From positions 1 through 50,990 of the forward strand of contig JAJYYI010000024.1 in the NCBI GenBank assembly GCA_021801125.1: a stretch of 50,990 nucleotides of DNA, read 5' to 3'. The notes beneath the pieces are model-generated. The model made no database searches. It saw only the letters and a program-made list of their open reading frames with translations, and was not told the DNA's origin. Each line of letters begins with the position of its first letter. Positions within the stretch are counted from its first letter, which is position 1. A program made the position numbers and the translations under genes. This DNA comes from Deltaproteobacteria bacterium (GTDB lineage Bacteria; Desulfobacterota; Binatia; Binatales; Binataceae). Below, piece by piece: positions 6,459-37,689 of this stretch.

Positions 6459-9400
6459 CTACGGCTTGAAGCTCGACGGCGGGGCGAGAAAGGACAGCGG
6501 AATGGTTACGGCATTGTACAGCGCTAATCGCGGACCGTACGCGGCCTCAAAAAAACCAATACCGGTGGCAGGCCGAACCAAATTGGTTCGATTGAAGATA
6601 TTAATCAGAGTCAACTGGTCCCAGGCTTGGCCAATGCCGGGAATGTAGAAACTGCGCCCCGCGCCGAGGTTGAGCCACCACCATATCGGTAACTGCTCGG
6701 TGTTGGCAAAACCGCCACGATATCCGCTGCCGAAAAGCCCGTCAATGCTAAGCAGGTACTTACCCCAACGGTAGACTATACCGCCGTTGGCGCCGAAAAG
6801 TGGCTCGTGGTCGAGAATGAAATAATGGTCGGCCATGTACGCGAGCTCGGCAGCGGTGAAGTTGTACTGCCCGCTCGCAACCCCCATCTCTTCGTCCCGC
6901 GCCGCTGTGAAGTTAATTCTGACCGTTAGATCCTCGCGATTATAGGCCAGCGTCTCCTCGAAACCCCATCCGTAGCCGTGGTCATAGTTAAACGGAATAT
7001 AAATCGGAACGAAGCCAAACTGCCCTTCGTCCAGGTAATGTTTCGACAGGCGGAAGTAGCTATCCTGACCAAGAGTGAGGTTAGGCGTCAAATGATCCAC
7101 CACCCCCGCGTCCCAGTACCAGTCGCGCTCCGGATAGGGAAAGGGATTGCCGCTTTGGCTGAGCGCCCCAGTCGTGCCGGCGAATTTCTGGAAACTTAAC
7201 GGCGAGACGCCCGAAAAAGGGGGAGGCTGAAAATAACGCGCGAAGCCGGCGTGGACGGCCGTGGTTTTTGTGGCTTGGTAGAGCAGATTGATATCGGGAC
7301 TGATCTGGTTGCCCTTAACAAAGCCCAAAGCCTCGTCAAACCGCGCGCCGTATGTGGCACGCAACTTCTCCGTAACCTGCCATGTGTCCTGCAGGTAGAC
7401 GCCAAGGAGCGTGTCAGTACCGTGAAACTCGTCTGCGATCGCCTCTGGCACATCGCTCGTCTGCTGACCCTGGCTGTTGACCGGAAAGACCAACGAATAG
7501 TTGTTAAACGCGATATTGTAACGGCCTGCGTAAAACCCGAAGCCAAGCAGATGGTTGTGAGTCAACTGGTAGGTTGCGTCACCTTCAAGCGTGTTGGCGA
7601 GGTCGGTGTGGGTGACATCGGAAGCCACGCCCTGGTAAATCATGTCGCCGATCGGGTCGGGGTTAAAAAGCTGAGTGTTATAATGTCCACCGTAGGCGAG
7701 CTGATACGAGAACGACGGACCGACTGTACCACTGAGCGCAAGCAGGCCGAAGTAGTCGTCCTGTTCAAGCCCCGAGTCAATGATCGTAGAAGGATAATTG
7801 GCTGGGTTAACGCCTGCTAAGTTGTAAAGGACGGGTTGGTTCGGGACGTTGGGGAACTGATTGTTCATCACCGTGATTCCCGTAATCAGGCTCAAGCGAG
7901 CGCTCGAGCTTAGGTCGTAGGTGAAGTATCCGAACCCCTGCCCCTGGTTAGTGTAATCATGAATCGGCATCGGCCCCGGCGTGGCAGAATCCAAGCCAAG
8001 CGCTGAGTACTCGTAAAAGCCGGTCACATAATAACTGAGCTTGCCCTTGCATCCAGCCCACTCAAAGCTGGGTTCAGCGGTTTGGCGCATTCCCCCGTAC
8101 GCTGTGAAGACGCCGATAGGTTGCTCGCATCCGTCTTTTGTCCGTATATCGATCACGGCGGAATTGCGATATCCGTATTGCGCGGGCAAGATCCCGTCCA
8201 ACAGGCTTACACTGCGAATGAGCCGTGAGTTGAGGAACTGCCCGAAACCAGGCTCAGTGGTCACGTCGAGCGGCAGCATCAGGCCATTGATTCGCCACTG
8301 AAAGTCGGCATGCTCACCGCGGACGTGAAACTGGCCGTCAAGATCACGCGCAACGCCGGGCATCTGCGTCAACACCCCGGTCATCGTGGTGTTGTTGCCC
8401 GCTGGAAGCTCGTTGATATCATTCTGCGTCAGTGTGTATTGGTTCGCCCCGGTTGATGACAGTCGCACTTGAGACGGCAAGCGCGAAGTCTGGAGCGGGA
8501 CGCTTAACGCATGCTCCGACTCCAGAGCAAGCGTGATCGACTTCGGTGGTCTGGAGCCGTCAACTTGCACGATGACGATCGCGGGCTTAAAGCCCTTCTT
8601 ACTTCCGATAGCGGCAAATACTCCGGGTGGTACGCGTCTCAAGACAAAATCACCGTGTTCGTCGCTCTGCGCCCGCGACACCACGGTTTGATCGGCGCGC
8701 TTAAGCTCAATTTGAACGTCAGGCAGCGGCCGTTTGAGAGCGTCAGTGGCGTGACCGCGAACTGTTACGACGGCGCGTCCGTTGCCTTCAGCTAGAGCGG
8801 GCTGACGCGAAAGGAGCGTGACCAAAGCCGTCGAGACGCCGAGGACCACGCGGCGTGTGAGCGCGCGTCCCTGCTGGAACAGCCTCGAATAACGCCGGCG
8901 GCTTAGCAGCCATGCGACGACAATGATCCCAGTGGCCAAAATTCCAACTCGCGCGGTGCTCGAAAGACTAAGCATCCGGTAGAGCAGACCGTCAAAGTGA
9001 AGCCACCCTCCGAACAGCCTGAGCCATTCCCCAGCGGCAACAAACAGCGCGAGCCCCGCCGAAAGACCGGTCAACACCAAGTTGAAGCGAAGCTTGCGCG
9101 CAGCGTCCGTGAAGGTCCAATCGTAAATGGTCATAACCAAGATGCCGTCGAGGGTATCGACCAAACTCATCCCGGCGGCAAACAACAGTGGAAATACCGT
9201 CACACCCCAAAGCGGAAGCCCACTGTGGAGAGCAGCGGCCGTTGAGAGACCGAGGATCGCTATCTCGCTGGCGGTGTCGAAGCTGAGCCCGAACAAGAGC
9301 CCGATCGGGTACATGTTCCAGCTCGCTTGGACGCGCCTGTAGAGGAAGCCAAACAGACGTGTCGTGATGCCGCGGTCGGCAAGAAGCTGGTCGATAGCTT

Positions 9401-9947
9401 CCACCGACCCCCCAATGGACGGATCGCGGCGGATCGCATCGGCCGCCCGGCGTAAACATCGAAAGATCCCTACATTGATGACGCCGATAAACGTCAGAAA
9501 GCCCGCGGAACAGAGTGCACCGACCACACTGTGAAGGCTAAGCTGCAGCCACTGTCCGGCGCCCGGGCTAAGACGCGCCGCAATCACCACAATCAATGAG
9601 AGCAAGGCCACAACCGTTGAGTGGCCGAGCGCAAAAAAGAGACCCGTCGAGGCCGTTCGCTGACCGTCTTGGCGAAGCTTACGCGTTACGTTGTCAATCG
9701 CGGCGATGTGGTCGGCGTCGAAGCCATGGCGCAGTCCTAGGCAATAAGCCAAAACGCCAGCACCTAGCAGCGTTCCGCTTCCAACGAACGACAGAGCGGC
9801 AAGCGAAATACACGCCACAATATTCACGCCGCACATGGTAACCAGCGGCGCACAGATGATTTGATTTCCTCCAGGCGCAGTAACTGGGACAGTGGAAAGA
9901 ACGGAAAGAGATGACGGGGTTTGCGGTTTAAGCGAGTTCACGCGCAT
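6459..9947 (-). CDS. fusion of a NiCoT nickel/cobalt permease and a TonB-dependent outer-membrane receptor
   Basis: A single uninterrupted 1162-codon frame. Residues about 40-350 form a NiCoT (HoxN/NixA) permease: RHGFDADHIAAIDN at 73-86, FFALGHSTVV, LSFDTASE and SLVDTLDG, with multiple membrane helices. Residues 361-386 look like an internal signal peptide: basic LTRR, then a hydrophobic stretch, ending ALA before Glu387 (8787-8867). After it come a carboxypeptidase-regulatory-like beta domain (about 390-475), a plug domain (INELPAGNNTT, MPGVARDLDGQFHVRG) and a 22-strand-type barrel to the C-terminus. The receptor part is full length for an Oar-like receptor. The ATG at 9947 has no clear Shine-Dalgarno sequence. 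It lies 497 bases downstream of a stand-alone NiCoT gene under a cobalamin riboswitch. Cleavage at 386 would release two working proteins. Confidence 0.9.
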   Translation of the reverse strand: MRVNSLKPQTPSSLSVLSTVPVTAPGGNQIICAPLVTMCGVNIVACISLAALSFVGSGTLLGAGVLAYCLGLRHGFDADHIAAIDNVTRKLRQDGQRTASTGLFFALGHSTVVALLSLIVVIAARLSPGAGQWLQLSLHSVVGALCSAGFLTFIGVINVGIFRCLRRAADAIRRDPSIGGSVEAIDQLLADRGITTRLFGFLYRRVQASWNMYPIGLLFGLSFDTASEIAILGLSTAAALHSGLPLWGVTVFPLLFAAGMSLVDTLDGILVMTIYDWTFTDAARKLRFNLVLTGLSAGLALFVAAGEWLRLFGGWLHFDGLLYRMLSLSSTARVGILATGIIVVAWLLSRRRYSRLFQQGRALTRRVVLGVSTALVTLLSRQPALAEGNGRAVVTVRGHATDALKRPLPDVQIELKRADQTVVSRAQSDEHGDFVLRRVPPGVFAAIGSKKGFKPAIVIVQVDGSRPPKSITLALESEHALSVPLQTSRLPSQVRLSSTGANQYTLTQNDINELPAGNNTTMTGVLTQMPGVARDLDGQFHVRGEHADFQWRINGLMLPLDVTTEPGFGQFLNSRLIRSVSLLDGILPAQYGYRNSAVIDIRTKDGCEQPIGVFTAYGGMRQTAEPSFEWAGCKGKLSYYVTGFYEYSALGLDSATPGPMPIHDYTNQGQGFGYFTYDLSSSARLSLITGITVMNNQFPNVPNQPVLYNLAGVNPANYPSTIIDSGLEQDDYFGLLALSGTVGPSFSYQLAYGGHYNTQLFNPDPIGDMIYQGVASDVTHTDLANTLEGDATYQLTHNHLLGFGFYAGRYNIAFNNYSLVFPVNSQGQQTSDVPEAIADEFHGTDTLLGVYLQDTWQVTEKLRATYGARFDEALGFVKGNQISPDINLLYQATKTTAVHAGFARYFQPPPFSGVSPLSFQKFAGTTGALSQSGNPFPYPERDWYWDAGVVDHLTPNLTLGQDSYFRLSKHYLDEGQFGFVPIYIPFNYDHGYGWGFEETLAYNREDLTVRINFTAARDEEMGVASGQYNFTAAELAYMADHYFILDHEPLFGANGGIVYRWGKYLLSIDGLFGSGYRGGFANTEQLPIWWWLNLGAGRSFYIPGIGQAWDQLTLINIFNRTNLVRPATGIGFFEAAYGPRLALYNAVTIPLSFLAPPSSFKP

Positions 9948-10444
9948 GTCAGTCTGCTAGTCGGACGCCTGGGCGCAGGCGTTACACCTTCTCATCGTAG
10001 GAAGAAGCAATGCTCGACGGTCCGCTGGGTTGGGGGGTTCGCGCAACGAGTTGCGGCACTCGTCGGTAGGCGTTCCGCTAACAACATCAGACCATTAGCC
10101 CTCCCCAGACAGCGAAGAACCCTGGTGTTGTGCACGTGTCCTCGGGTTCAGCGCAGGCAAGACCAGTATCATCGAACATCCTGCCCGTCAAGAAAATTTG
10201 ATCCCCTCCCAAGTCATGGAAGAGATTGAGGCTCGCTTTCGATTCGGAGAGCTGGCTATTTCCGTATCTAAATCGTGCCTGTGCAGCGTCGCACTCAGAC
10301 ATGCAACGCTGTTGTCAGACCGTACGGCCTTAGGTGGCCAGCATACGGCGTCAGGGGAGCCGGGGCGGGCTTTCTTGGATTGCCGAGTGAGGCAACCTCG
10401 AGCTCCGACCCGTTCGCCCTCGACGTGGCAGAAAGCGTCGCACT
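9948..10444 (-). other. non-coding gap between the two NiCoT genes
   Basis: This 497-base stretch holds no convincing gene. It was read for a second cobalamin riboswitch and shows none of the B12-box segments seen at 11.6-11.8 kb. A short perfect hairpin, ACGCCTG-GGCG-CAGGCGT at 9965-9982, lies 17 bases before the fusion gene's ATG and could affect translation. Another small inverted repeat (CGCAAC/GTTGCG) is at 10042-10055. Neither is followed by a T tract. Confidence 0.5.
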
Positions 10445-11485
10445 TTACCGGCGCCTGTACAGCAGCCACGCCACACACCAAGCCGCCAGTAGAACAAGCG
10501 TAACGATCAAACCCATGGAGAAAGAGTCAAGCTTTTCGGCCAAACTGCGTAGCCCACCTCGGCTGGAGGCCGCGAATTTAATCCACCCCACGAGCGCTAC
10601 ACCCAGGGCGACTCCCGCCGACACACCGGTGACCGTCAAATTGAATGATAGCTTTCTCGCGGGGTCGGAGAAGGTCCAATCGTACATCCCCATCATGAAG
10701 GCGCCATCCATGCCGTCGATCAGCACCATTCCCGCCGTAAGCATCACTGGAAAGATCATGATGGTCCACAGTGGCAGCGTGCCGTGGGAAGCCGCCTCGC
10801 CGGAAAAGCCGAGCACCGCGACCTCGGTTGCGGTGTCGAAACCTAAGCCGAAAAGAAACCCGATCACCAGCATCTGCCAACTCGCGCTTATTCGCCGGTA
10901 TATAGTCGAAAAGATTCTCCCGATGAGGCCGCGCTGGCTTAGCAGCGACTCAAATTCACGGCTCCAACCGTCTGCCTTCACATCAGTTGTGCTGGCGACC
11001 CGACGCAACTGAAAGAAGATCGCGATATTGATCGCGCCCATTACCGTTAGGAACGAGGCCGGGGCAAGCCTGCTCAAACTACCGCCCGACAAGCGGGTAA
11101 GAAGCTCGTGGCCTACGTGCGAATGTCCGGCTGCGATCATAAGCACGCACAGGAGCATTACGGTCGCCGAATGTCCGAGCGCGAAGAACACTCCGATAGT
11201 GAGGTTACGCTTTCCGTCGTGCCGCAGTTTTCGCGTTACATTGTCGATGGCCGCAATATGGTCAGCGTCGAAACCGTGGCGCATTCCGAAAAGAAAGCAC
11301 AACGCACCTAAGCTCAGCACCGACCGGTCTATGGCGGCCGCGAAGCTCGCCAGGGCTAGCCACGCGCTCAACGCCAATACGAACAGAGCGCAGAAGAGCA
11401 CGGCAGCTTGGCGCCGCATTGACCGGTTGACCAGCACACCTGTTGAGCGCAGGGCGAGGCACGAAGAGCTACTGCCCGAGGACAT
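10445..11485 (-). CDS. NiCoT-family nickel/cobalt permease, probably a cobalt importer
   Basis: A 346-residue inner-membrane permease. The NiCoT signature RHGFDADHIAAIDN is at 69-82 (HX4DH in helix 2), followed by FFALGHSATV, GLGFDTATE and GMVLIDGMDG, with about eight membrane helices in all, and the length is normal. NiCoTs import Ni2+ or Co2+. The cobalamin riboswitch immediately upstream argues for cobalt as the physiological substrate. The ATG at 11485 sits 7 bases after an ACGAGG that is itself the 3' arm of the riboswitch terminator, so translation and transcription are controlled together. It shares clear similarity with the permease half of the downstream fusion, consistent with duplication. 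Confidence 0.95.
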   Translation of the reverse strand: MSSGSSSSCLALRSTGVLVNRSMRRQAAVLFCALFVLALSAWLALASFAAAIDRSVLSLGALCFLFGMRHGFDADHIAAIDNVTRKLRHDGKRNLTIGVFFALGHSATVMLLCVLMIAAGHSHVGHELLTRLSGGSLSRLAPASFLTVMGAINIAIFFQLRRVASTTDVKADGWSREFESLLSQRGLIGRIFSTIYRRISASWQMLVIGFLFGLGFDTATEVAVLGFSGEAASHGTLPLWTIMIFPVMLTAGMVLIDGMDGAFMMGMYDWTFSDPARKLSFNLTVTGVSAGVALGVALVGWIKFAASSRGGLRSLAEKLDSFSMGLIVTLVLLAAWCVAWLLYRRR

Positions 11486-11515
11486 GAAAAAACCTCGTTT
11501 CCTGAGGAAACGAGG
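11486..11515 (-). terminator. intrinsic terminator of the cobalamin riboswitch, embedding the ribosome-binding site
   Basis: On the minus strand, CCTCGTTTCC (11515-11506), loop TCA and GGAAACGAGG (11502-11493) form a perfect 10-bp hairpin followed by TTTTTT (11492-11487). The start codon follows one base later. The 3' arm contains the Shine-Dalgarno-like ACGAGG, so folding would both terminate transcription and hide the ribosome site. Upstream GGAAACG (11558-11552) can pair with CGTTTCC (11512-11506) of the 5' arm and is a candidate antiterminator. Confidence 0.9.
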
Positions 11516-11584
11516 CTCACGTAGCCGGCAAGGCCAAGCTCACGGACGCTCCGTTTCCACGCGGAGAATTTCTGTCCGATCCGT

Positions 11585-21449: not shown

Positions 21450-24400
21450 TAGACTTTCCGCGACGCAAGCCGCACGCGTCGCCCCGCCGCGAGCGCCTCT
21501 ATCGTGATGTATAGCGCAGGAATGAAAAACAACGTGAGAAGCGTTGACAGCGAAAGGCCACCTATCAGCGAGCGCGCCAACGGAGCGTTGGTCTCGCTGC
21601 CGACTCCGAGCCCTAACGCCATGGGAAGCAATCCGGCCAGCGTGGCCACTGTAGTCATCAAGATCGGCCGCAGGCGCACGCGAGCGGCCTCAACCACGGC
21701 CTCGTGCAGCTCATGCCCGCTTTCGCGTAATACGTTCGTGTAATGGACCATCAGGACTCCGTTTGACACGACGATCCCGACCATCATAATAACGCCCATG
21801 AACGAAGAAACCGAGAACGCCGTGCGCGTAAGAAAAAGCGCCCAGACCACGCCGGCCATCCCAAGCGGCACCGAGAACATGATGATGAACGGATCCACCA
21901 ACGAACGAAATTGCGAAGCCAGAACCATATAGACCAGGACGATCGCTAGGGCGACCGCCATCTCAAGCGTGTGAAAGGCGCCGCGCTGCTGCTCAACCTG
22001 GCCGGTTAGCTTGAGACTAAAACCGGCAGGCAAGGGAATCTTGGCGAGCCGCTCTTCGAGGTCGCTGGCAACCGCACCCAGATCGCGACCGACCGGATTA
22101 GCGGTGATGTCAATCGCCCTTTGCAGGTACTTGCGATCGATTTCTATCGGCCCAGCCCCCGGTTTGACCGATGCCAGCGTTCGCAGCCTCACCACTCCCA
22201 TATTGCGGGACGGATCGCCGGAGGAGGCAGGATTGACGAGAAACGTGTCACCAAGGTCGCGCACGTGGCTTCGAAAGTCGTCTTGGTAACGGACCACGAT
22301 GTTGTATTCGTTGCCGGTGCGCGGATCGATATATATCGAGGGCGAATTGGTCGAGCCGTTGGTAGAGTCCAAAATCACGTGAGTGGCGTCATATTGATAG
22401 ATGCCCGCCAAGGCGGCTTTCTCACGGTCGACGTCGATGTCGAACTCGGGAAAGTTTTCTTCACGGCTTATTTGCACGTCAGCCAGACCAGGCATGCTTC
22501 TCATGGTCCGCGTTATCTGGCGCGCGAGCGCGGCGCCAGCATTTAGATCGTACCCCAGCTCAAGGACGTCGATGGGCGCGGACGCGCCGAAGTAGAGCAC
22601 GCGCGCGATGAGTCCGCCCGGGTCCATGTACTGCTTCACGGCGGGGAACTTGCGCGCCAGGATTGGGCGTAGATAGTCCACAACCTCCTTGGTGGACATT
22701 GAGCGTCGGCTCGGGTCGACCAGATGAACGCTGATCTGCGCCGCGTGCGGGCCGGTATTCGAGGAATAGGTGGCTTGACGGGCCGAAGCGCGCCCAGCGG
22801 TGGTCAACAGGCCGATAGCCGATTGGATAATCGTGATCCATCCGGGCGGAAGATCGCGTTTGATCTCGTCCTCCATCTGACCAACAATCTTCTCGGTCAA
22901 TTCGATTCGCGAACCGACCGGCAGGCGAATGCTCAGATGAAACTGGCTTTCATCGGAAACCGGCATAAATTCAACGCCGATGCCGCGCACCAGCAGTACG
23001 GACGCCGCGGCGAAGCCAACCACGGCGAACATCACCAAGCCGCGATGCTTAAGGGCTTTCACCAACGCCCGCCGGTAGACTACTTCCAACCAATCCACCG
23101 CCGCCTTGCAAGCATCCGACGCGCGAGCCAACAGACCGCGCGCTTGCCGATGCCCCTTTTCGTCGAGATAGCGCAGGCACAACAGCGGCGTCACCGTGCG
23201 CGAAACCAGAAAAGAGGCAACGAGTGAGCAGGTGACGGCAATCGCCAGCGGCGTAAATAGAATCTGCCCGACGCCTTGGGCAAACAGACCCGGCAAGAAA
23301 ACGATCACCGTGGTGATGGTCGATGCCAAAATCGGCATCGCCACCTCGTTCGCCGCGTCGAGCACCGCCTTGCGTCTGGAACTCGTGGTCGCGAAATGGC
23401 GAGCGATATTCTCCAGCTCGACGATCGAGTCGTCCACCATTCGGCCTACCGCCAGGGCAAGGCCACCTAGCGAGAATATATTGAGCGACTGATGGTCGAG
23501 ATAAAGCAGCAGGAACGTGGCCAAAATCGACAGCGGGATGGCAAGAGAGATGATCGCCGTCGCGCGCAGACTTTGCAGGAAAAATAGAATCACGCCGAAA
23601 GCCAAGAGCGCGCCCTGCAACGCTTCCTGACGCAGCGAAGTGATCGACTTGCGAATATAGGTCGACTCGTCGAAGAATATCGCCAGCTTGATCCCCGGCG
23701 GGATGCCGACCAGGCGATCCAGCGAGTTGCGCACCGCGTTGACCACCTCCACGGTGTTCTGGCCCGGCTGCTTGTAAATCGCCATGTAGACACCGCGCTG
23801 ACCGTTGATACGGACGATATAGCTTTGATCCTCCGAACTATCCGCGGCCTGGCCGAGCATCCCAATCGTGATCGGCACGCCGGCGCGATTTGCGACGACC
23901 ACGTCATTGATACGGTCGATCACTTTGAGCTGGACATTCGTGGTGACCCCGTACTGACGGTCGCCGACTTTGATCCAGCCGGCCGGCTCAAGCAAATTGG
24001 CCCCGTTTATCGCCTTAGAAAGATCGAGCAGCGACAGCCCCACGGCGGCCATCCGCTCGCGGTCCACGCCGACCGAAATTTGGCGGATCTTGCCGCCTGA
24101 CACCACGGCTGACGCCACGCCCGGAAGCTGCTCGAACTGCGGCTCGATAACGTTGTAGGCCAGATCGTATAGCTGACGCTCATCCATCCCCGCGCCCGAC
24201 ACGTCGACCGCGCAGACCGGGATGTTGGCGAGGTCGTATTTGATGATAAACGGCGATTGCACGCCGGTCGGCAACAGGTTGAGTATTTGCTGAATCCGGT
24301 TGTTCGCCTCGACCATCGCGGCGCTCAGATCCGCGTTCCAATCCAGCCATACGCTGACCAGCGAGACGCCTTCCTTCGATACCGATTCTATATGGTCGAC

Positions 24401-24628
24401 GTTGGAAAGTCCGGAAACCGCCTTTTCCACCGGGTAGGTAACGGTGTGCTCGATGTCTTGCGGACCCGCTCCAGGGTAAAGCGTGGCGACTCGTAGCACG
24501 GGCAGGTTGATGTTTGGGAACAGGTCGATCGGCAGGCGATTTAACGAGACGATGCCAAGAATCGCGATCGCCAACGTGGCCATCGCGATCAACACCGGAT
24601 TCTTGAGCGCAAGCCGAGTGAGCCACAT
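21449..24628 (-). CDS. RND efflux pump inner-membrane subunit (second of a tandem pair)
   Basis: A 1059-residue AcrB/MdtB-type transporter with 12 membrane helices and two large periplasmic loops, exporting substrates with proton import. The start MWLTRLALKNPVLIAMATLA is typical. The proton-relay Asp pair is in GRMVDDSIVELEN (TM4). Other family segments are FPNINLPV, PLSILATFLLL and MVLASQFRSLVDP. Length is normal. It follows a paralogue by 130 bases; tandem RND genes after one MFP resemble MdtBC, which form a heterotrimer. The substrate is not predictable. Confidence 0.95.
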   Translation of the reverse strand: MWLTRLALKNPVLIAMATLAIAILGIVSLNRLPIDLFPNINLPVLRVATLYPGAGPQDIEHTVTYPVEKAVSGLSNVDHIESVSKEGVSLVSVWLDWNADLSAAMVEANNRIQQILNLLPTGVQSPFIIKYDLANIPVCAVDVSGAGMDERQLYDLAYNVIEPQFEQLPGVASAVVSGGKIRQISVGVDRERMAAVGLSLLDLSKAINGANLLEPAGWIKVGDRQYGVTTNVQLKVIDRINDVVVANRAGVPITIGMLGQAADSSEDQSYIVRINGQRGVYMAIYKQPGQNTVEVVNAVRNSLDRLVGIPPGIKLAIFFDESTYIRKSITSLRQEALQGALLAFGVILFFLQSLRATAIISLAIPLSILATFLLLYLDHQSLNIFSLGGLALAVGRMVDDSIVELENIARHFATTSSRRKAVLDAANEVAMPILASTITTVIVFLPGLFAQGVGQILFTPLAIAVTCSLVASFLVSRTVTPLLCLRYLDEKGHRQARGLLARASDACKAAVDWLEVVYRRALVKALKHRGLVMFAVVGFAAASVLLVRGIGVEFMPVSDESQFHLSIRLPVGSRIELTEKIVGQMEDEIKRDLPPGWITIIQSAIGLLTTAGRASARQATYSSNTGPHAAQISVHLVDPSRRSMSTKEVVDYLRPILARKFPAVKQYMDPGGLIARVLYFGASAPIDVLELGYDLNAGAALARQITRTMRSMPGLADVQISREENFPEFDIDVDREKAALAGIYQYDATHVILDSTNGSTNSPSIYIDPRTGNEYNIVVRYQDDFRSHVRDLGDTFLVNPASSGDPSRNMGVVRLRTLASVKPGAGPIEIDRKYLQRAIDITANPVGRDLGAVASDLEERLAKIPLPAGFSLKLTGQVEQQRGAFHTLEMAVALAIVLVYMVLASQFRSLVDPFIIMFSVPLGMAGVVWALFLTRTAFSVSSFMGVIMMVGIVVSNGVLMVHYTNVLRESGHELHEAVVEAARVRLRPILMTTVATLAGLLPMALGLGVGSETNAPLARSLIGGLSLSTLLTLFFIPALYITIEALAAGRRVRLASRKV

Positions 24629-24758
24629 AAAAGCTACTTACCCGCGCGCGTCGGCACCCGCTTAGCGCCAACCGCTCGCCGCGTATCCTACACACGCGCC
24701 ATCGCGCACCGCTCGACCCTCGTGAGTTCCGCGCTTGCCGAAACGGGGAACCCGAACC

Positions 24759-27700
24759 TTATCGGTCGAGTGCGCCAGCCGCATCATCGTCATCCTCGTC
24801 AAGCGGGCGCAGCGTGCGCGGGAACGCGCCCTCCAACAGCTCATAGAGCGCGGGCACGAAGAACAGCGTAAGAGCGGTGGAGACCGAGAGGCCCCCGATT
24901 ACCGCGCGCGCCAGCGGCGCGTTGGATTCACTGCCGATACCAAACCCAAGCGCCATGGGCAGCAAGCCCACCAGCGTCGCGACCGTGGTCATCATGATTG
25001 GGCGCAGCCGCGTCCGTCCGGCCTTTGTCACCGCCTCCCGTACGGCGAACCCGCGCCGGCGCAACAGGTTTGCGTAATCGACCAGCAGGACACCGTTGGA
25101 CACGACGATCCCGGCCATCATAATCACGCCCATAAAGGAGCTGGTCGAGAAGCTCGTACCCGTTAAGTACAAAATCCAGATGACGCCGGTCATCCCGAAA
25201 GGCACGGTAAACATGATGATGAACGGGTCCACCAGCGACTGGAACTGCGAGGCCATCACCATGTACACCAGCAGAAGCGCCAGCGCCGTGGCGAAGTAAA
25301 GGCTGCCGAAAGCGCTTTGCTGCTGGGCTATCTGGCCCGCCAATCGCAAGCTGAAACCAGGCGGCAACGGAATCTGGTCGAGCCGTTGGCGCAACTCGGA
25401 GGCAAGCGACCCGAGGTCACGCCCCATGGGCGAAGCGGTAACGTCGATCACGCGCTGGAGGTATTTGCGATCGATCTCAAGCGGACCGGCGCCGGGCGAG
25501 ATGCGCGCGATGTTGCGCACTTGAACGATTTGGTTGGCGCTTGGACTACCGGTGGCTCCAGCCATTCCGGTGACCGGAGCGAGCGGTGACGGCGGCGGCT
25601 GCTCGCCCCCGCCAGGAAGCTCGCCGCCTCCGCCTTGCCCCGCTCCCGGCACACCGGACGTAATCAGGTTGAGCGCCGCGGGCAGTCCGCTCACCGAGGT
25701 CGACGGCGCTAGACCGCGGTTGAGCAGAAAAATGTCGCCCAAGTCCGATACGTGAGAGCGGTCTTCAGGCTGCAGCTGAACCACGATGTTGTATTCATTG
25801 CCGGTAACAGGATCGGTAAAGACCGGGGGATTGAGCGTATTGCCGTTTAGCGAATAAAGAATCGCGTTGGCGGCGTCGCGTTCGTTGATGCCAAGCAGCG
25901 AAGCTTTGATTCGATCGATCGCGATGTTGAACTTGGGAAAATCACGCTCGCGGGCGATGCGCACGCCGGCAAGACCTGGGGTGGCTCGCATCGCCGCCGC
26001 CACGCGCGCCGCGACCTCTCGCGCTTGCGTCAAGTCGTAGCCCAGTACTTCGACCTCGACCGGCGCCTCGGCGCCAAAGTTGAGCACGCTCTCTACGGTT
26101 CCGGTGGGACGAACATAGATTTGCGCTTCGGGGAAGGCGGCGGTCAGTCCCGTCCGCAAGCGCGCGACGATCTCCGTCGTGGAAACGTTGCGCCGGTCCG
26201 GGCGCACCAACTCAACGTCTATGAAAGCCGCGTGCGGCCCGGTGTTGGTCGAATAGACTGCAGCTTGGGCGTTGACCTTGCCCGCCGTCGTGAGCAGCCC
26301 GATATTCGAGAGCATCATCCTGAGCGTTCCCGGCGGAAGCTCGTGCCGAATCTCCGTTTCGATCCGCCCCACAAGCTGCTCCGTGTATTCGATCCGCGAC
26401 CCGACAGGAGCGCGAACCGCAACTTCGAGATGGCTCTCGTCGGAAGCCGGGAAGAACTCTGTGCCGATAAACGGCACGACGCCCAGCGACAAAACGAATA
26501 GCAGCGCCACAGCGCTGACCGTAAGGCCGGGGCTTCCAAGCGCGCGAATCAGCGTCCGTTCGTAGAGCGTCTCGAATCCCCGCAAAAACGCCTGCACCAA
26601 CGCCGCGACGCGCTCGAGCGGGTTAGAACTGTGGGAGTCGCGTGCGCGCTCAGGGCCCAGATACTTAAGGCACAAAAGAGGCGTAACCGTCCGTGAGACC
26701 AGAAAGCTCGCCGAGAGCGAGTAACTGATCGCAAGTGCCATCGGGATAAAGAGGAGCTGCGCCACGCCGGTGATAAATATGATGGGGAGAAAGACCACGA
26801 TGGTCGTGACTGTCGAGGCAAGAATCGGCATCGCCACCTCGCGCGCCGCCGCGAGCACTCCGGGCTCACCCGTGTTGCCGGCGGTGAAATGGCGCGAGAT
26901 GTTCTCCAGTTCCACGATTGCGTCGTCGACCAGCCGCCCCACACCGAGCGCGAGGCCGCCAAGGGTGAACACGTTGATCGCCTGACCGGAGAAGTACAGC
27001 AGCAGAAAAGTCGCCACGATCGAAAGCGGAATCGCCACCGACACGATTAGCGTACCCGCCAGGCTTTGCATGAAGAGCAGAATCACCACGAAAGCGAGCA
27101 CCGCGCCCTCGAGCGCCTCGTGTTCTAGATTGCGTATCGCGTCCTTGATGTACACCGACTGGTCGAAGGTCAGCCGCAGTTTAATCGCGTCGGGAACGCC
27201 CACCAGATGCTTGAGGCGCTCGCGAACCGCGTTCACCACGTCCACCGTGTTGGCGCCCGGCTGCTTATTGATGGCCAAATAAACCGCGCGCTTGCCGTCA
27301 GTGCGCACGATGTTGGTCTGCTCTTCCGCCGAGTCACTCACGGTGCCCAGATCACCGACGCGCACCGGTACTCCTCCCACCGTCGTGACCACCACCTGCG
27401 CGATCGCCGGCACCACCCGGAACTGCGCGTTGGAAAAAATGTTGTATTGGCGCTCGCCGATGCGAATCCATCCGGATGGCTGAATCAGGTTGGAATTGCC
27501 GACCGCGTTGACCACGTCCAGGATCGAGATTCCGCGCGCCTGCATCTTGTCGCGGCTCACGGAGATCGTGATCTGACGGACTTTGCCACCATTCACCGTC
27601 GCCGTGGCGACGCCGGGCAGTTGCTCGAGCTGCGGAGCGATCAGGTTGTACGACAAATCGTATAATCGACGCTCATCGATCCCCGTCCCCGTCACGGTTA

Positions 27701-28121
27701 CGTTGCACACGGGCAGGTTGGAGACGTCAAACTTGACCACGAACGGCTGCTGCACGCCGGCAGGAAGGATGTTGAGAATCTGCTGGATGTGCTGCGTTAC
27801 CTCCACCATGGCGCTTTCGATGTTCGCGCCCCATCGCAGCCATACCTGAACGATCGACAGACCCTCTTTGGAATACGATTGGACGTGATCGACGTTGGAG
27901 ACCGACGTAACCGCTTTTTCAACCTGATAGGTGACCGTTTTTTCAACGTCTTCCGGACTGGCTCCTTGATAGATCGTGCCGACGATCAGCACCGGCAGAG
28001 ATATGTTGGGGAAAAGATCGACCGGCATCCGCGTCAACGACGTGGCGCCAAGGATCACGATGGCGAGCGACACCATCAGAATGAAGATCGGGTTTCGAAG
28101 CGCTAACCGGGTAAGCCACAT
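24759..28121 (-). CDS. RND efflux pump inner-membrane subunit (first of a tandem pair), with Pro/Gly-rich insertion
   Basis: A 1120-residue RND pump, paralogous to the following gene and starting MWLTRLALRNPIFILMVSLA. The TM4 proton-relay Asp pair is in GRLVDDAIVELEN. It is longer than its partner mainly because of a low-complexity Gly/Pro insertion of about 45-50 residues around 812-860 (DNA about 25540-25690: GAGQGGGGELPGGGEQPPP), just before SPGAGPLEIDRKYLQRVID in the second periplasmic domain. The partner has only a short loop there. It lies 309 bases downstream of the membrane-fusion protein gene. Confidence 0.95.
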   Translation of the reverse strand: MWLTRLALRNPIFILMVSLAIVILGATSLTRMPVDLFPNISLPVLIVGTIYQGASPEDVEKTVTYQVEKAVTSVSNVDHVQSYSKEGLSIVQVWLRWGANIESAMVEVTQHIQQILNILPAGVQQPFVVKFDVSNLPVCNVTVTGTGIDERRLYDLSYNLIAPQLEQLPGVATATVNGGKVRQITISVSRDKMQARGISILDVVNAVGNSNLIQPSGWIRIGERQYNIFSNAQFRVVPAIAQVVVTTVGGVPVRVGDLGTVSDSAEEQTNIVRTDGKRAVYLAINKQPGANTVDVVNAVRERLKHLVGVPDAIKLRLTFDQSVYIKDAIRNLEHEALEGAVLAFVVILLFMQSLAGTLIVSVAIPLSIVATFLLLYFSGQAINVFTLGGLALGVGRLVDDAIVELENISRHFTAGNTGEPGVLAAAREVAMPILASTVTTIVVFLPIIFITGVAQLLFIPMALAISYSLSASFLVSRTVTPLLCLKYLGPERARDSHSSNPLERVAALVQAFLRGFETLYERTLIRALGSPGLTVSAVALLFVLSLGVVPFIGTEFFPASDESHLEVAVRAPVGSRIEYTEQLVGRIETEIRHELPPGTLRMMLSNIGLLTTAGKVNAQAAVYSTNTGPHAAFIDVELVRPDRRNVSTTEIVARLRTGLTAAFPEAQIYVRPTGTVESVLNFGAEAPVEVEVLGYDLTQAREVAARVAAAMRATPGLAGVRIARERDFPKFNIAIDRIKASLLGINERDAANAILYSLNGNTLNPPVFTDPVTGNEYNIVVQLQPEDRSHVSDLGDIFLLNRGLAPSTSVSGLPAALNLITSGVPGAGQGGGGELPGGGEQPPPSPLAPVTGMAGATGSPSANQIVQVRNIARISPGAGPLEIDRKYLQRVIDVTASPMGRDLGSLASELRQRLDQIPLPPGFSLRLAGQIAQQQSAFGSLYFATALALLLVYMVMASQFQSLVDPFIIMFTVPFGMTGVIWILYLTGTSFSTSSFMGVIMMAGIVVSNGVLLVDYANLLRRRGFAVREAVTKAGRTRLRPIMMTTVATLVGLLPMALGFGIGSESNAPLARAVIGGLSVSTALTLFFVPALYELLEGAFPRTLRPLDEDDDDAAGALDR

Positions 28122-33786: not shown

Positions 33787-35715
33787 ATGCACAGGTCGCT
33801 TTGCGGATTGTCGATGGCCATTCTGGCGCTTCTGGCGGCGCAATGGCTTTCAGCGACGCGCGCGCTCGCCCAGAGCTCGCCGAGCCGCTCGGCCGCACCA
33901 TCCGCCAGCATCAAGAGCACGTCATCTTCCTCCGCTGCGGCCACTGGTGGCAACCCGTTGTTGCCGGTGCCGGGAGCGCAGACCCCGCCGAACATCAACA
34001 TCCCAATCAAAGACACCGCACCATTCGAAGAGAACGAGGACGTTCTTTCTCTGCCGTCGGTTTTCTCCCGGCAATGGTCGCTGGTGGAACAGGTTCCGGC
34101 AGAAAGCATGATCAACCGCGGCTACATCCGCACGCGCTCGCGCGTGCGCCGTCTGCTGAGCCTCAAGCAAGCGGTCTACGTGGCGCTGCTGAATAACCCG
34201 GCCGTGAGGGCCGCACGCCTCGACCCGGTGGCTGCACAGGAAGCGGTCAACATGGCGTGGGCTGAATTCGATCCCGATACCCAGGCCTCCATAGGCCTGA
34301 CCAACAATATCATCCCCGCCGCCACGCCGTTCGAGACTTTTGCCGCCAACCCGGCTTTCAGCACCACGGAGTACGAGTGGAACGCCGGCATATTGAAGGT
34401 TCTGAGCAGCACCAACGGCTTGGCGGAGCTTCAGTTCACAAACGTTTACGAGAGCAGCAACAGCTTCATCCAGACCGTCAACCCGTACTATCAACCGATG
34501 CTTCTGTTCACGCTCTCCCAGCCGCTTCTGCGCAACTTCGGCTGGAAGTTCGCGACGATCGGCGTACAGATCGCCGAGTCACAGCAAAAACGCGCGCAAT
34601 GGTTTTACAAGCAGGCGATCGACGACTTTGTTATGAAGGTGGGTTTCGACTACTGGGAACTTGTCCGCGCGATAGAGAATTTGCGCGTAGCGCAGGAAGC
34701 TCTCAAGTTTTACGACGACTTGGTGCGCCAAAACATGATTAGTCTCAAGGTCGGGACAATGGCGCCGATTGACGTCGAGGAAGCCCAAGCCGCGGCTGAG
34801 ACCGCGCGCGCCAATGTCTATACCGCCGAGGCCAACCTGGAAGGCGCGCGTGTGACGCTGCGGCAGGACGCCATGATTAACCCTTCGCACGACTTCATTC
34901 CGGACAATGTCGAGCCAACTGATCGCCCCAACCCTCAGGAAAAGATCCCGGCTGACGACGAAGAGGCGATCGAACACGCCGTGCTTTATCGTCCGGTGCT
35001 TCATCAGCTGCGCCAATCGATCGAGACCTCGCAGCTTCAGTCGAAATTCATGGAAAACCAGCTCCTGCCCCAACTTAACCTCACGGGGCTAATCGGAATC
35101 ACGAGCGAACAAGGCAACGTGATCTGCGTACCCAGTTTTGGATTCGCGGCACCAAACTGCGTTCAAGGAGCCCCGTTTGTCACGGCCGGGCAACCGGGCT
35201 ACCAGCTCCCCTTCAAGGGAGGCTACAACACCGCGCTGGCGAACATGTTCAACTTTGGCTTCTACCAGTATTCCGTGTTCTTCACTTGGAGCATGCAACT
35301 TGACAACGCCACCGCCAAGGCCGCGCTTTCTGAGTCGCGGGTCAATTATGAACAGCGGCGCTTGCAGTACCGCGACATGCTCTCGCAGGTGGTAGCCGAG
35401 GTGCAAAGCTCCATCGTGAACGTGCGCGCCGACCTCAAGCGGGTGTCCGCCACCCAAGCGGCGACCGAGTACGCGCGGCGCGCGCTGCACGACGAGCAAG
35501 AGCGCTTCAGGGTCGGGATGGCAACCACGCACGATCTCTTGCAGTACGAGGAGCAGTTGGCCAGCGCTGAAGGTAACGAGGTCCAGGCCGAGGTCGATTT
35601 CGAGGAAGCCAAGATACAACTCCTGCACGCACAGGGCCGTCTGCTTGCTTACTTCAACATTGAGTTCGAGATCGAGGACCCGCATCAGAACGTCCCGTGG
35701 TATGCGCGCTTCTGA
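33787..35715 (+). CDS. TolC-family outer-membrane channel, paralogue 1
   Basis: A 642-residue exported protein (signal peptide with cleavage near TRALA-Q). The TolC fold is shown by two long alpha-hairpin repeats, the first around LKQAVYVALLNNPAVRAARL and the second around AKAALSESRVNYEQRR, plus the closing DLLQYEEQLASAEG region. It has an N-terminal extension of about 100 residues before the first repeat and an insert with a C-x10-C pair (ICVPSFG...PNC). TolC proteins form the outer-membrane exit duct for RND and ABC pumps. A close paralogue follows 78 bases later. The RND operon on the other strand is the probable client. Confidence 0.92.
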   Translation: MHRSLCGLSMAILALLAAQWLSATRALAQSSPSRSAAPSASIKSTSSSSAAATGGNPLLPVPGAQTPPNINIPIKDTAPFEENEDVLSLPSVFSRQWSLVEQVPAESMINRGYIRTRSRVRRLLSLKQAVYVALLNNPAVRAARLDPVAAQEAVNMAWAEFDPDTQASIGLTNNIIPAATPFETFAANPAFSTTEYEWNAGILKVLSSTNGLAELQFTNVYESSNSFIQTVNPYYQPMLLFTLSQPLLRNFGWKFATIGVQIAESQQKRAQWFYKQAIDDFVMKVGFDYWELVRAIENLRVAQEALKFYDDLVRQNMISLKVGTMAPIDVEEAQAAAETARANVYTAEANLEGARVTLRQDAMINPSHDFIPDNVEPTDRPNPQEKIPADDEEAIEHAVLYRPVLHQLRQSIETSQLQSKFMENQLLPQLNLTGLIGITSEQGNVICVPSFGFAAPNCVQGAPFVTAGQPGYQLPFKGGYNTALANMFNFGFYQYSVFFTWSMQLDNATAKAALSESRVNYEQRRLQYRDMLSQVVAEVQSSIVNVRADLKRVSATQAATEYARRALHDEQERFRVGMATTHDLLQYEEQLASAEGNEVQAEVDFEEAKIQLLHAQGRLLAYFNIEFEIEDPHQNVPWYARF

Positions 35716-35793
35716 GGAGCTTACGAGTAAACGGCGGCGCTTTCGCCGAGAGAATTGAGCAAGCCGTGGAAAAAACGAAAGAGGAACAGGGCG

Positions 35794-37689
35794 ATGAAGA
35801 ATCTAACTGTCCGATTGCTGCTTGCCGCGCTCACTGTTGTTACAGCACAAACGTTCACAGCGCGAACGGCGACCGCCCAGACATCGGGTGCTCGTGCGGG
35901 TGGGACCTCGGGTTCATCCGCGGCCGATCCGGCAGTTCCTCTGGTCGGCTCGCAAACCACGCCCCAGGTCAGCGTACCCATATCGGAGAATAACAGATTC
36001 GAGCAGAACCAGGGTTTCATGGATCTGCCGTCGGTTTTCTCTCATCAATGGTCGGTGGCTCGCGAGATCCCGCCGGAGAGTATCATCAACCGCGACTATA
36101 TTCGGACGCGTTCGCGGGTGCGCCGGCTTATGACCTTGAAGCAGGCCGTGTATATAGCGTTGATAAACAACCCTGCAATCAAAGCCGCTCGACTCGATCC
36201 CGTCGCCGCCCAAGAGGCGGTCAATATGGCGTGGGCCGAGTTTGATCCCGATTCGCTGGCGAACATGGGCACGATCTACAGCGCGCTCCCGATATCGACT
36301 CCGATCGAGACCTTCGCGGCGTCTCCAGCGCTAGAGACGCAACAGTACGAGTGGAATTTCACGCTCAACAAGATCCTCGCCAGCACCAACGGCACCTTGA
36401 GCCTGCAGTTCAACAACTTGTACGAGAACACGAACAACCTTACACAAACCGTAAATCCCTATTATAACCCGCTGCTTCAAATCTCTCTTTCGCAACCGCT
36501 TTTGCGCAATTTCGGCTGGAAGTTTGCCACGCTCAGCGTCCAGATCGCCGAGTCCCAGCAGAAGCAGTCGCAATGGCTATACGAACAGGCGGCGGAGGAC
36601 TTCGTGCTGCGCGTCGCCTCCGACTATTGGAATCTGGTACGGGCGCAAGAAAATCTGCGCGTCGCTTTGGAAGCGCTCAAGTTCAACGAAGATTTGGTGC
36701 GCCAAAACAAGATAAGCCTGCGGGTCGGCACGATGGCGCCAATCGACGTGCAGGAGGCCGAATCCGCGGCAGAGACTGCGCGCGCCAATGTCTATACAGC
36801 CGAAGCAAATCTGCAGACCGCTCGCGTCACCCTACGCCAGGACGTAATGCTTAATCCGGCGCACGCCTTCATCCCCGAGGACATCGAGCCCGCCGACGCA
36901 CCCAATCCGCGCCAGGAACTGCGCCTAGACACCGAGAACTCGCTCGAAAAGGCCGTGCTTTACCGACCCGAACTGCACGAGATGCGTCAGGCGATTATCA
37001 CTGATCTGCTGCAGACAAAATTCCAAGAAAACCAACTCCTGCCCCAGGTCAACTTGCAGACCCAGTTTGGCGTCAGCAACGAACAAGGTAACGCGATTTG
37101 CGGCCCTTCCTTCGGATTAGTGAGCCCAAATTGTACTCAAACCACGCCAGGTGAGACCTTTGGCCAGCCAGGCTACTCGGTGCCGTTCCAGGGGGGGTAT
37201 GGCAGTGCGTTGAGCAAGATGTTCGATTTCAGCTTTTACAACTATGCCGCTTTCTTCAGTTGGGAGATGCAGCTTGACAACGCCACCGCCAAGGCAGCGT
37301 TGTCCCAGGCTCGCGTCGTGTACGAGCAACAGCGCATGCAATATCGCGACATGCTCTCGCAGGTCATAACCGACGTCGAGAGTTCACTTGCCAACGCCCG
37401 CGCCGATCTAAAGCGTGTCGTGGCAACCGCCGCGGCGACCGAATATGCGCGCCAGGCGCTGCACAATGAGCAGCAGCGCTTTAGAGTCGGAATGGCCACG
37501 ACACACGACCTTTTGCAATTCGAAAACGAGTTGGTCAGCGCCGAGGGAAATGAGGTGCAGACCGAAGTTGACCTCGAACAGGCAAGGCTTCAACTTCTAC
37601 ATGCGGAAGGTCGTTTGCTCTCCCATTTCGGCGTAAACTTCGAACTGCAGGATCCGCACACGAACATTCCGTGGTTCGGCCGGTTCTAA
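35794..37689 (+). CDS. TolC-family outer-membrane channel, paralogue 2
   Basis: A 631-residue exported TolC-like channel. The ATG at 35794 gives the signal peptide (LTVRLLLAALTVVTAQTFTA) and has GAGG 9 bases upstream; the frame opens earlier at 35755. It aligns along its whole length with the preceding gene: YIRTRSRVRRL, DPVAAQEAVNMAWAEFDPD, VGTMAPIDV and RVGMATTHDLLQ are nearly identical. The N-terminal extension and the C-x10-C insert are also shared. The pair is a tandem duplication, and the extension, more conserved than expected for a signal tail, suggests a specific partner. Both end in PWYARF or PWFGRF with a terminal Phe. Confidence 0.92.
   Translation: MKNLTVRLLLAALTVVTAQTFTARTATAQTSGARAGGTSGSSAADPAVPLVGSQTTPQVSVPISENNRFEQNQGFMDLPSVFSHQWSVAREIPPESIINRDYIRTRSRVRRLMTLKQAVYIALINNPAIKAARLDPVAAQEAVNMAWAEFDPDSLANMGTIYSALPISTPIETFAASPALETQQYEWNFTLNKILASTNGTLSLQFNNLYENTNNLTQTVNPYYNPLLQISLSQPLLRNFGWKFATLSVQIAESQQKQSQWLYEQAAEDFVLRVASDYWNLVRAQENLRVALEALKFNEDLVRQNKISLRVGTMAPIDVQEAESAAETARANVYTAEANLQTARVTLRQDVMLNPAHAFIPEDIEPADAPNPRQELRLDTENSLEKAVLYRPELHEMRQAIITDLLQTKFQENQLLPQVNLQTQFGVSNEQGNAICGPSFGLVSPNCTQTTPGETFGQPGYSVPFQGGYGSALSKMFDFSFYNYAAFFSWEMQLDNATAKAALSQARVVYEQQRMQYRDMLSQVITDVESSLANARADLKRVVATAAATEYARQALHNEQQRFRVGMATTHDLLQFENELVSAEGNEVQTEVDLEQARLQLLHAEGRLLSHFGVNFELQDPHTNIPWFGRF

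Follow-up and report, generated by a model that had tools for sequence, protein, structure and literature searches.

Precursors that are cut at an internal signal peptide are known in principle, for example FbcH, cytochrome b/c1, of Bradyrhizobium japonicum. Here we describe an open reading frame (ORF) of a Deltaproteobacteria bacterium from the family Binataceae in which a nickel/cobalt permease of the NiCoT family is joined to a TonB-dependent receptor. The ORF is located on the reverse strand of a stretch of 50,990 nucleotides, the whole of which was analyzed and is referred to as the window (positions 1 to 50,990 of contig JAJYYI010000024.1, GenBank assembly GCA_021801125.1). Its product is probably one precursor for a two-membrane uptake pair for cobalt, possibly nickel, which is cut into an inner-membrane permease and an outer-membrane receptor.

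The NiCoT permeases have eight transmembrane segments according to the parts of PMC2667541 used here, and six to eight according to those of PMC7689651, section 20 of which lists four signature motifs of the family. The parts of PMC7689651 used here also describe a gene row of Novosphingobium aromaticivorans, composed of a riboswitch, a TonB receptor, a NiCoT, and CobW, with a predicted function in cobalt uptake, and state that an outer-membrane receptor specific for cobalt is yet to be confirmed. Among the open-licence papers listed, no title or abstract describes a fusion of a NiCoT with a TonB receptor, which is a weak negative with subscription journals outside its scope, and the words "fusion" and "TonB" do not occur in the parts used of PMC2667541, a comparative study of nickel and cobalt transport. 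A preliminary description of the window, made from its letters, had stated that no such fusion is described, which is consistent with the literature within this limited scope.

Organization of the fused reading frame

The frame extends over 1162 codons from an ATG and contains no internal stop (Table 1). Its N-terminal half matches the Pfam family NicO with 217.7 bits (gathering score 27.7), and its C-terminal half contains a carboxypeptidase regulatory-like domain followed by the beta-barrel of a TonB-dependent receptor, which is matched with 50.3 bits (gathering score 27). The joining of the two proteins in a single ORF, put forward in the preliminary description, is borne out by the frame and by these domains. 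The receptor had been described as complete, with a regulatory domain, plug, and barrel. The regulatory domain and barrel exceed their gathering scores, whereas the plug domain has no Pfam match in the ORF and is represented by a match of residues 505-628 to the NCBIfam model TonB-siderophor, the 21.1 bits of which are far below the cut-off of 223.5. The region is labeled as plug because of this sub-threshold match, its position, and its conservation.

The NiCoT signature noted previously at residues 73-86 is located there (RHGFDADHIAAIDN), and the motif RHGFDADHI begins at residue 73. The motifs of the third and sixth transmembrane segments (TM3 and TM6), as given in section 20 of PMC7689651, are exact in the ORF, and the hydropathy pattern of the NiCoT half matches that of the NiCoT permeases HoxN, NixA, and NhlF. 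No solved relatives of the NiCoT half were found by sequence at E ≤ 0.01. A model of residues 1-401, based on 31 sequences, has a mean predicted local distance difference test score (pLDDT) of 75.7, with values below 50 at both ends. In the model, the last NiCoT segment and the signal-peptide-like segment are joined by a single helix of residues 331-380, which is compatible with the presence of a membrane anchor or with none.

Junction between the permease and the receptor

The two halves are connected by a signal-peptide-like segment ending with ALA/E at residues 386/387, as previously described, where the slash marks the putative cleavage site. Residues 350-389 read RRRYSRLFQQGRALTRR VVLGVSTALVTLLSRQPALA/EGN. 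The composition of the tail formed by residues 350-366 befits a cytoplasmic stretch. Because the eight segments of a NiCoT are even in number, the tail would be cytoplasmic, as an in-frame signal peptide requires. The segment is kept in three fusions (ALTRRVVLGVSTALVTLLSRQPALA/E, AITRRAIIGVSTALLTLLARHPALA/D, and ALTRRVIIGLTTAIVTLITRQPAFG/D), which belong to the window's own genome (G000), a genome of the same genus (G001), and a genome of another genus (G015). The three junctions, RRRYSRLFQQGRALTRRVVLGVSTALVTLLSRQPALA/EGN, RQRYLKLLRRGRAITRRAIIGVSTALLTLLARHPALA/DGE, and RQRYLKALRHGRALTRRVIIGLTTAIVTLITRQPAFG/DGE, each comprise a charged n-region, a hydrophobic h-region, and a small-x-small site. 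The composition of the segment indicates that it is likely a signal peptide.

Conservation and occurrence of the fusion

The search with the whole protein covered 38 genomes, the window's own and 37 relatives. G001 contains one other complete copy, a single frame encoding 1166 amino acids that is 81% identical over residues 32-1162. Residues 21-683 of the G015 copy are encoded on one contig and residues 649-1162 on a second. Because the ends of the two contigs, which lie within the gene, are identical over 105 bases, the G015 gene is very probably continuous. The draft genomes consist of many contigs, and the split of the G015 copy could point to an artefact of assembly, about which the preliminary description had been concerned. 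However, the frame and joining point are the same in three divergent genomes and the domains are under purifying selection. The single frame of G001 and the contig overlap of G015 show that the fusion is not an accident of assembly, the probability of which is practically nil. A genome search for the same domain pair in one ORF, envisaged previously, finds it in G001 and, across two contigs, in G015, and a NiCoT joined to an OprB porin is encoded in a further relative, G003.

Every stretch of the gene is under purifying selection between G000 and G001. The ratios of nonsynonymous to synonymous substitution rates (dN/dS) are 0.14 for the NiCoT, 0.16 for the linker and signal segment, 0.16 for the regulatory domain, 0.03 for the plug region, and 0.06 for the barrel. 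Among the fusions, dN/dS is 0.10-0.14 for the NiCoT and 0.03-0.06 for the plug and barrel.

The 41 genomes of the family encode 14 full-length NiCoTs, four of them fused, and G044 contains a fragment. At E ≤ 1e-20, NiCoTs are present in eight of the 148 genomes of the class, all from the same family and holding the 14 copies. In a draw of 297 genomes of the phylum, which excludes the other NiCoT-carrying genomes of the family, a NicO match above 200 bits occurs in the window's own genome only, and any match at E ≤ 0.001 in 27 of the 297. Among named genomes, at least 573 relatives were found and the best 80 kept. Of these best 80, the closest NiCoT is 48% identical, none (0/80) has a fused C-terminal domain, and the longest tail has 75 residues (L084, where the match ended early). 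No fused frame was found in the 23 of the 80 named genomes that were searched with the whole protein, and their NiCoT frames have at most 525 amino acids.

Of the 124 TonB-barrel matches in the 41 family genomes, only those of the two complete fusions are located in frames longer than 1,100 amino acids (1165 and 1166, followed by 1019), a count that leaves out the G015 copy, cut by contig ends. Together with the recurrence of the join in two further genomes, this count speaks against a chance occurrence. Among 21 OprB matches, the frame of G003 alone exceeds 700 amino acids. A general habit of fusion among barrels of the family is rejected by these frame lengths. No N-terminal NiCoT was seen by eye, without a domain search, in the first 420 residues of six other long frames (TonB-barrel frames of 1019, 953, and 928 amino acids and OprB frames of 687, 654, and 626).

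A NiCoT-OprB fusion and the origin of the fusions

The G003 fusion is encoded by a frame of 878 codons (L024:5112-7745(+), G003:C55) in which NicO (2.4e-69) is followed by an OprB-family porin (1.2e-37), and a cobalamin riboswitch is positioned ahead of it at L024:4944-5150. A signal-peptide-like segment recognized by eye, QAFGPLLLLCSALLGASTGNCLA/S, is located between NicO and the barrel, and Pfam detects no spacer domain there. The NiCoT-OprB fusion is known from G003 alone.

The NiCoT of G003 is 84% identical to the unfused second NiCoT of the window. In a tree of 34 NiCoTs, the three NiCoT-TonB-receptor fusions form one clade (100/99) with the unfused NiCoT of G009 as its sister (100/98), whereas the G003 protein groups with the second NiCoT of the window (100/100). 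Branches with good support require two changes between the fused and unfused states, and, given the unrelated barrels, two gains of fusion are the simplest interpretation.

The coding linker of the NiCoT-OprB fusion is similar to a stretch that follows the stop codon of the second NiCoT in the window (Table 1), with a local alignment score of 69 compared with a maximum of 57 in 1000 single-base shuffles. Beyond this stretch, the score was reached by three of 100 shuffles, and there is no clear likeness to G003; tblastn found no OprB remnant downstream of the second NiCoT at E ≤ 0.01. As the alignment suggests, either G003 lost a stop or the window copy lost its barrel, and the likeness may record the formation or the decay of such fusions.

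Riboswitches at the fusion loci

The preliminary description had reported a B12 riboswitch and a second NiCoT next to the fused frame and had read the locus as serving cobalt uptake. Both elements are present (Table 1), and the cobalamin context holds more widely, as all four fusions are positioned at cobalamin-riboswitch loci. In G001, G015, and G003, the riboswitch directly precedes the fusion, and the fusion in the window may be transcribed by read-through from the second NiCoT. The family contains five cobalamin-riboswitch loci with six NiCoTs, including the four fusions, and eight other NiCoT loci with neither a cobalamin riboswitch nor a fusion. The association is suggestive only, as the copies are related and not independent. 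Cobalamin riboswitches are present at four of 11 named loci that were checked, and at none of the stand-alone TonB-receptor loci (0/17 with flanks of about 1.5 kb, and 0/7 in a second set).

The hairpin downstream of the riboswitch has 13 pairs in the window, 10 pairs in G003, and only five in G001, and is absent from G015. A weaker terminator-like site is located at 10201-10226. The four terminator-like patterns in 2 kb near the window riboswitch, compared with 2.4 expected, are only suggestive. One sigma-70-like site is positioned at the riboswitch start in each of G001 and G015, with 0.0 and 0.1 expected. Counts of terminator- and promoter-like patterns are within approximately 1-2 standard deviations of shuffles and carry little weight.

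Relatives with a permease and a receptor as two separately started genes at the locus, a case raised in the preliminary description, were not found among the relatives examined: the nearest unfused relative, G009, has a NiCoT alone, which ends where the fusions continue into the signal segment and is followed within about 10 bases by a TolC-like gene. The G009 locus (L025:2891-6879(-), G009:C45) comprises on one strand a riboswitch, the NiCoT, the TolC-like gene, and frames that by eye resemble parts of a resistance-nodulation-division (RND) pump. Import and export genes of G009 are perhaps under one riboswitch.

Table 1. Positions in the window of the fused frame, its parts, and the adjoining elements
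Feature	Position	Strand	Basis
Fused ORF, NiCoT permease and TonB-dependent receptor, 1162 amino acids	6459..9947	-	ORF translation, Pfam
NicO (NiCoT) domain, residues 61-349	8901..9767	-	Pfam, 2.6e-64, above gathering score
Charged tail, residues 350-366, NiCoT C-terminus and putative n-region	8850..8900	-	7 K/R, 0 D/E
h-region and c-region of the signal-peptide-like segment, residues 367-386	8790..8849	-	Cut after residue 386 likely
Carboxypeptidase regulatory-like domain (CarboxypepD_reg), residues 395-467	8547..8765	-	Pfam, 1.1e-9, above gathering score
Plug region, residues 505-628	8064..8435	-	Weak sub-threshold match only
TonB-dependent receptor beta-barrel (TonB_dep_Rec), residues 664-1119	6591..7958	-	Pfam, 4.4e-13, above gathering score
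Stretch 3' of second NiCoT stop, resembling the coding linker in G003	10340..10445	-	Alignment, shuffle test
Second, unfused NiCoT, 346 amino acids	10445..11485	-	ORF, Pfam
Terminator-like hairpin with 13 pairs and a T run, downstream of the riboswitch and upstream of the second NiCoT	11490..11518	-	Pattern match only
Cobalamin riboswitch RF00174	11572..11776	-	104.6 bits

Proposed processing of the precursor

The computed frame, domains, conservation, start codons, and riboswitches suggest a mechanism in which the topology, cleavage, locations, substrate, and equal numbers of the products are predicted. Translation from the NiCoT start would place a permease of eight helices in the inner membrane, its C-terminus facing the cytoplasm, in agreement with knowledge of the family and the distribution of charges. 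The charged tail would double as the n-region of the receptor's signal peptide, and the ninth, cleavable segment would enter the Sec channel. Signal peptidase I would cut after residue 386 and free the mature receptor. The permease would stay in the inner membrane, and the TonB-dependent receptor would proceed to the outer membrane. The single start codon would provide both parts in equal number from loci under cobalamin-riboswitch control, and the cobalamin riboswitches point to nickel or cobalt as the substrate. The window's own genome contains two matches to the signal peptidase I family Peptidase_S26 (PF10502; 177.4 and 62.1 bits), one TonB_C match with 26.1 bits, just above the cut-off of 24.6, and five TonB-barrel matches.

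Alternative explanations

It is conceivable that two genes overlap in frame, such that the receptor is translated from a start of its own inside the frame, which is continuous only because no stop intervenes. GTG367 and TTG375 of G000 and TTG379 of G001 are located within the signal segment. Relative to the cleavage site, the candidates are TTG at -50, GTG at -20, and TTG at -12 in G000, and TTG at -12, TTG at -2, and four more between -44 and -53 in G001. TTG at -12 and -50 are common to these two genomes, in which weak internal starts are thus possible, as is one at the GTG found in G000 only; the rare starts ATT, ATA, and CTG do occur. However, no ATG, GTG, or TTG ahead of the site is common to the three fusions, and in G015 the preceding 74 codons are free of all three. 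Initiation at GTG -20 would drop the charged n-region, and the nearest Shine-Dalgarno-like word is about 18-20 bases ahead. In the NiCoT-OprB fusion of G003, the 90 codons before the site offer just two candidates, a TTG within the h-region and a TTG at -72. Among stand-alone paralogues, which are 39-52% identical to the receptor half (17 loci read, two of them lacking the N-terminus), 14 of the 15 that retain the N-terminus have a methionine no more than about 50 residues ahead of the receptor match, followed by a hydrophobic segment. Because no start is common to the three fusions and G015 has none, the receptor is most likely translated from the NiCoT start, and separate internal initiation is unlikely. 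The product could also remain uncut and form a bridging importer, in which the ninth segment is an inner-membrane anchor, the receptor is tethered to the permease by the carboxypeptidase-like domain and a linker, and cobalt is handed across the periplasm without release. Such a bridge is consistent with the conservation of the fusion in G001 and G015, with the long helix of the model, and with the estimated 18 nm spanned by residues 387-500 when fully stretched. However, that reach is barely sufficient for a chain that must cross the cell wall, and a small-x-small site directly follows a short h-region in all three fusions. The preliminary description had left the choice between a cut polyprotein and a bridge open; the evidence favors the polyprotein. 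The separate NiCoT-OprB fusion, with no spacer domain by Pfam, also fits a general cut-precursor design better, and the bridge is improbable.

Cleavage of the precursor would also be compatible with a neutral origin, a possible though rather doubtful reading that overlaps with the former: an intervening stop was lost, the product works, and the fusion confers no advantage. The fusions were found in four genomes of one family only, the linker of G003 resembles the sequence behind the stop of its unfused orthologue in the window, and riboswitch-led NiCoTs are unfused in L037, L044, and G009. Against neutrality, NiCoTs were joined to two unrelated barrels, in all cases at riboswitch loci, where four of six are fused compared with none of the eight elsewhere (all related copies), and the joining was kept over a large divergence, as the NiCoTs of the fusions are 60-73% identical with dS above 1.

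In addition to the possible weak starts, several observations weigh against the cut precursor for cobalt uptake or fit it less clearly. The NiCoT half scores below the NCBIfam cut-offs (TIGR00802, 276 versus 333.05 bits; NF052500, 262.9 versus 450 bits) and is a NicO-family member outside these curated models. The TM2 motif RHGFDADHI (G for A) and the TM5 motif LSFDTASE (S for G) each differ in one residue from those in section 20 of PMC7689651. In the PDB, the receptor half has only weak sequence matches, all to the colicin I receptor. The riboswitch in the window precedes the unfused second NiCoT and not the fusion, none is found directly before the fusion in 9930-10470, and riboswitches also accompany unfused NiCoTs, directly before the gene in L037 and L044 and likewise in G009. 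Between G001 and G015, dN/dS reaches 0.51 in the linker (40 codons) and 0.91 in the signal segment (21 codons), stretches that are short and for which several dS values exceed 2; these ratios speak against the segment being tightly constrained in its exact sequence. In blocks of 100 residues, G000 and G015 are 84-95% identical from residue 501 on and 45-76% in blocks 1-300. The corresponding identities between G000 and G001 are 84-93% and 61-88%. The NiCoT tree pairs G001 with G015 (98/83) despite G000 and G001 belonging to the same genus. The receptor half of G000 resembles that of G015 at least as closely as that of its congener G001, which does not hold for the NiCoT half (6459-9947, L021, L022, L023). 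The two halves have different histories, through recombination, transfer, or uneven rates.

If the cut precursor is real, it would be a natural precursor with halves in two membranes, in which receptor and inner-membrane permease are held to the same number. That NiCoTs at riboswitch loci were joined both to a TonB receptor and, separately, to an OprB porin, which are unrelated barrels, would tie the receptor to cobalt uptake, and the fusion names a testable candidate for a cobalt-specific outer-membrane receptor.

Other observations

A stand-alone receptor of Paraburkholderia (L116:5208-8231(+)), 38% identical, is immediately followed by a frame that by eye is ExbB-like. An Rfam match to the 5' ureB small RNA (90.6 bits) at L118:11839-12136(-) (G001:C27) is within kilobases of a stand-alone receptor paralogue and may only reflect a urease gene. 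Elsewhere in the window, adjoining frames of 642 and 644 amino acids (33787-37686(+)) have signal-peptide-like starts and similar Ser/Pro-rich beginnings, and a tandem pair of adjoining frames of 1059 and 1120 amino acids (21452-28121(-)) has nearly alike beginnings and by eye resembles RND-pump subunits.

Comparison with known systems

The locus resembles the gene row of N. aromaticivorans, as described in the parts of PMC7689651 used here, in combining a cobalamin riboswitch, a TonB-dependent receptor, and a NiCoT. In contrast to that row of separate genes with the receptor first, the window contains one ORF with the permease first and an embedded signal-peptide-like segment. The N-terminal half shares the Pfam family NicO, the hydropathy pattern, and two of four exact motifs with the NiCoTs HoxN, NixA, and NhlF, but differs from the named-genome relatives compared above in its fused C-terminal domain. 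The C-terminal half is organized as in TonB-dependent receptors with CarboxypepD_reg, including the stand-alone paralogues of the family, with the regulatory domain followed by the barrel. Unlike those receptors, it probably has no start of its own and is made as the C-terminal part of a permease precursor. The predicted processing is similar to that of FbcH, in which an inner-membrane protein is in frame with an exported protein through the signal peptide of the latter and is cut there. However, both products of FbcH serve one inner-membrane complex, whereas the protein described here has an outer-membrane barrel as its second half, and its two parts would function in metal uptake.

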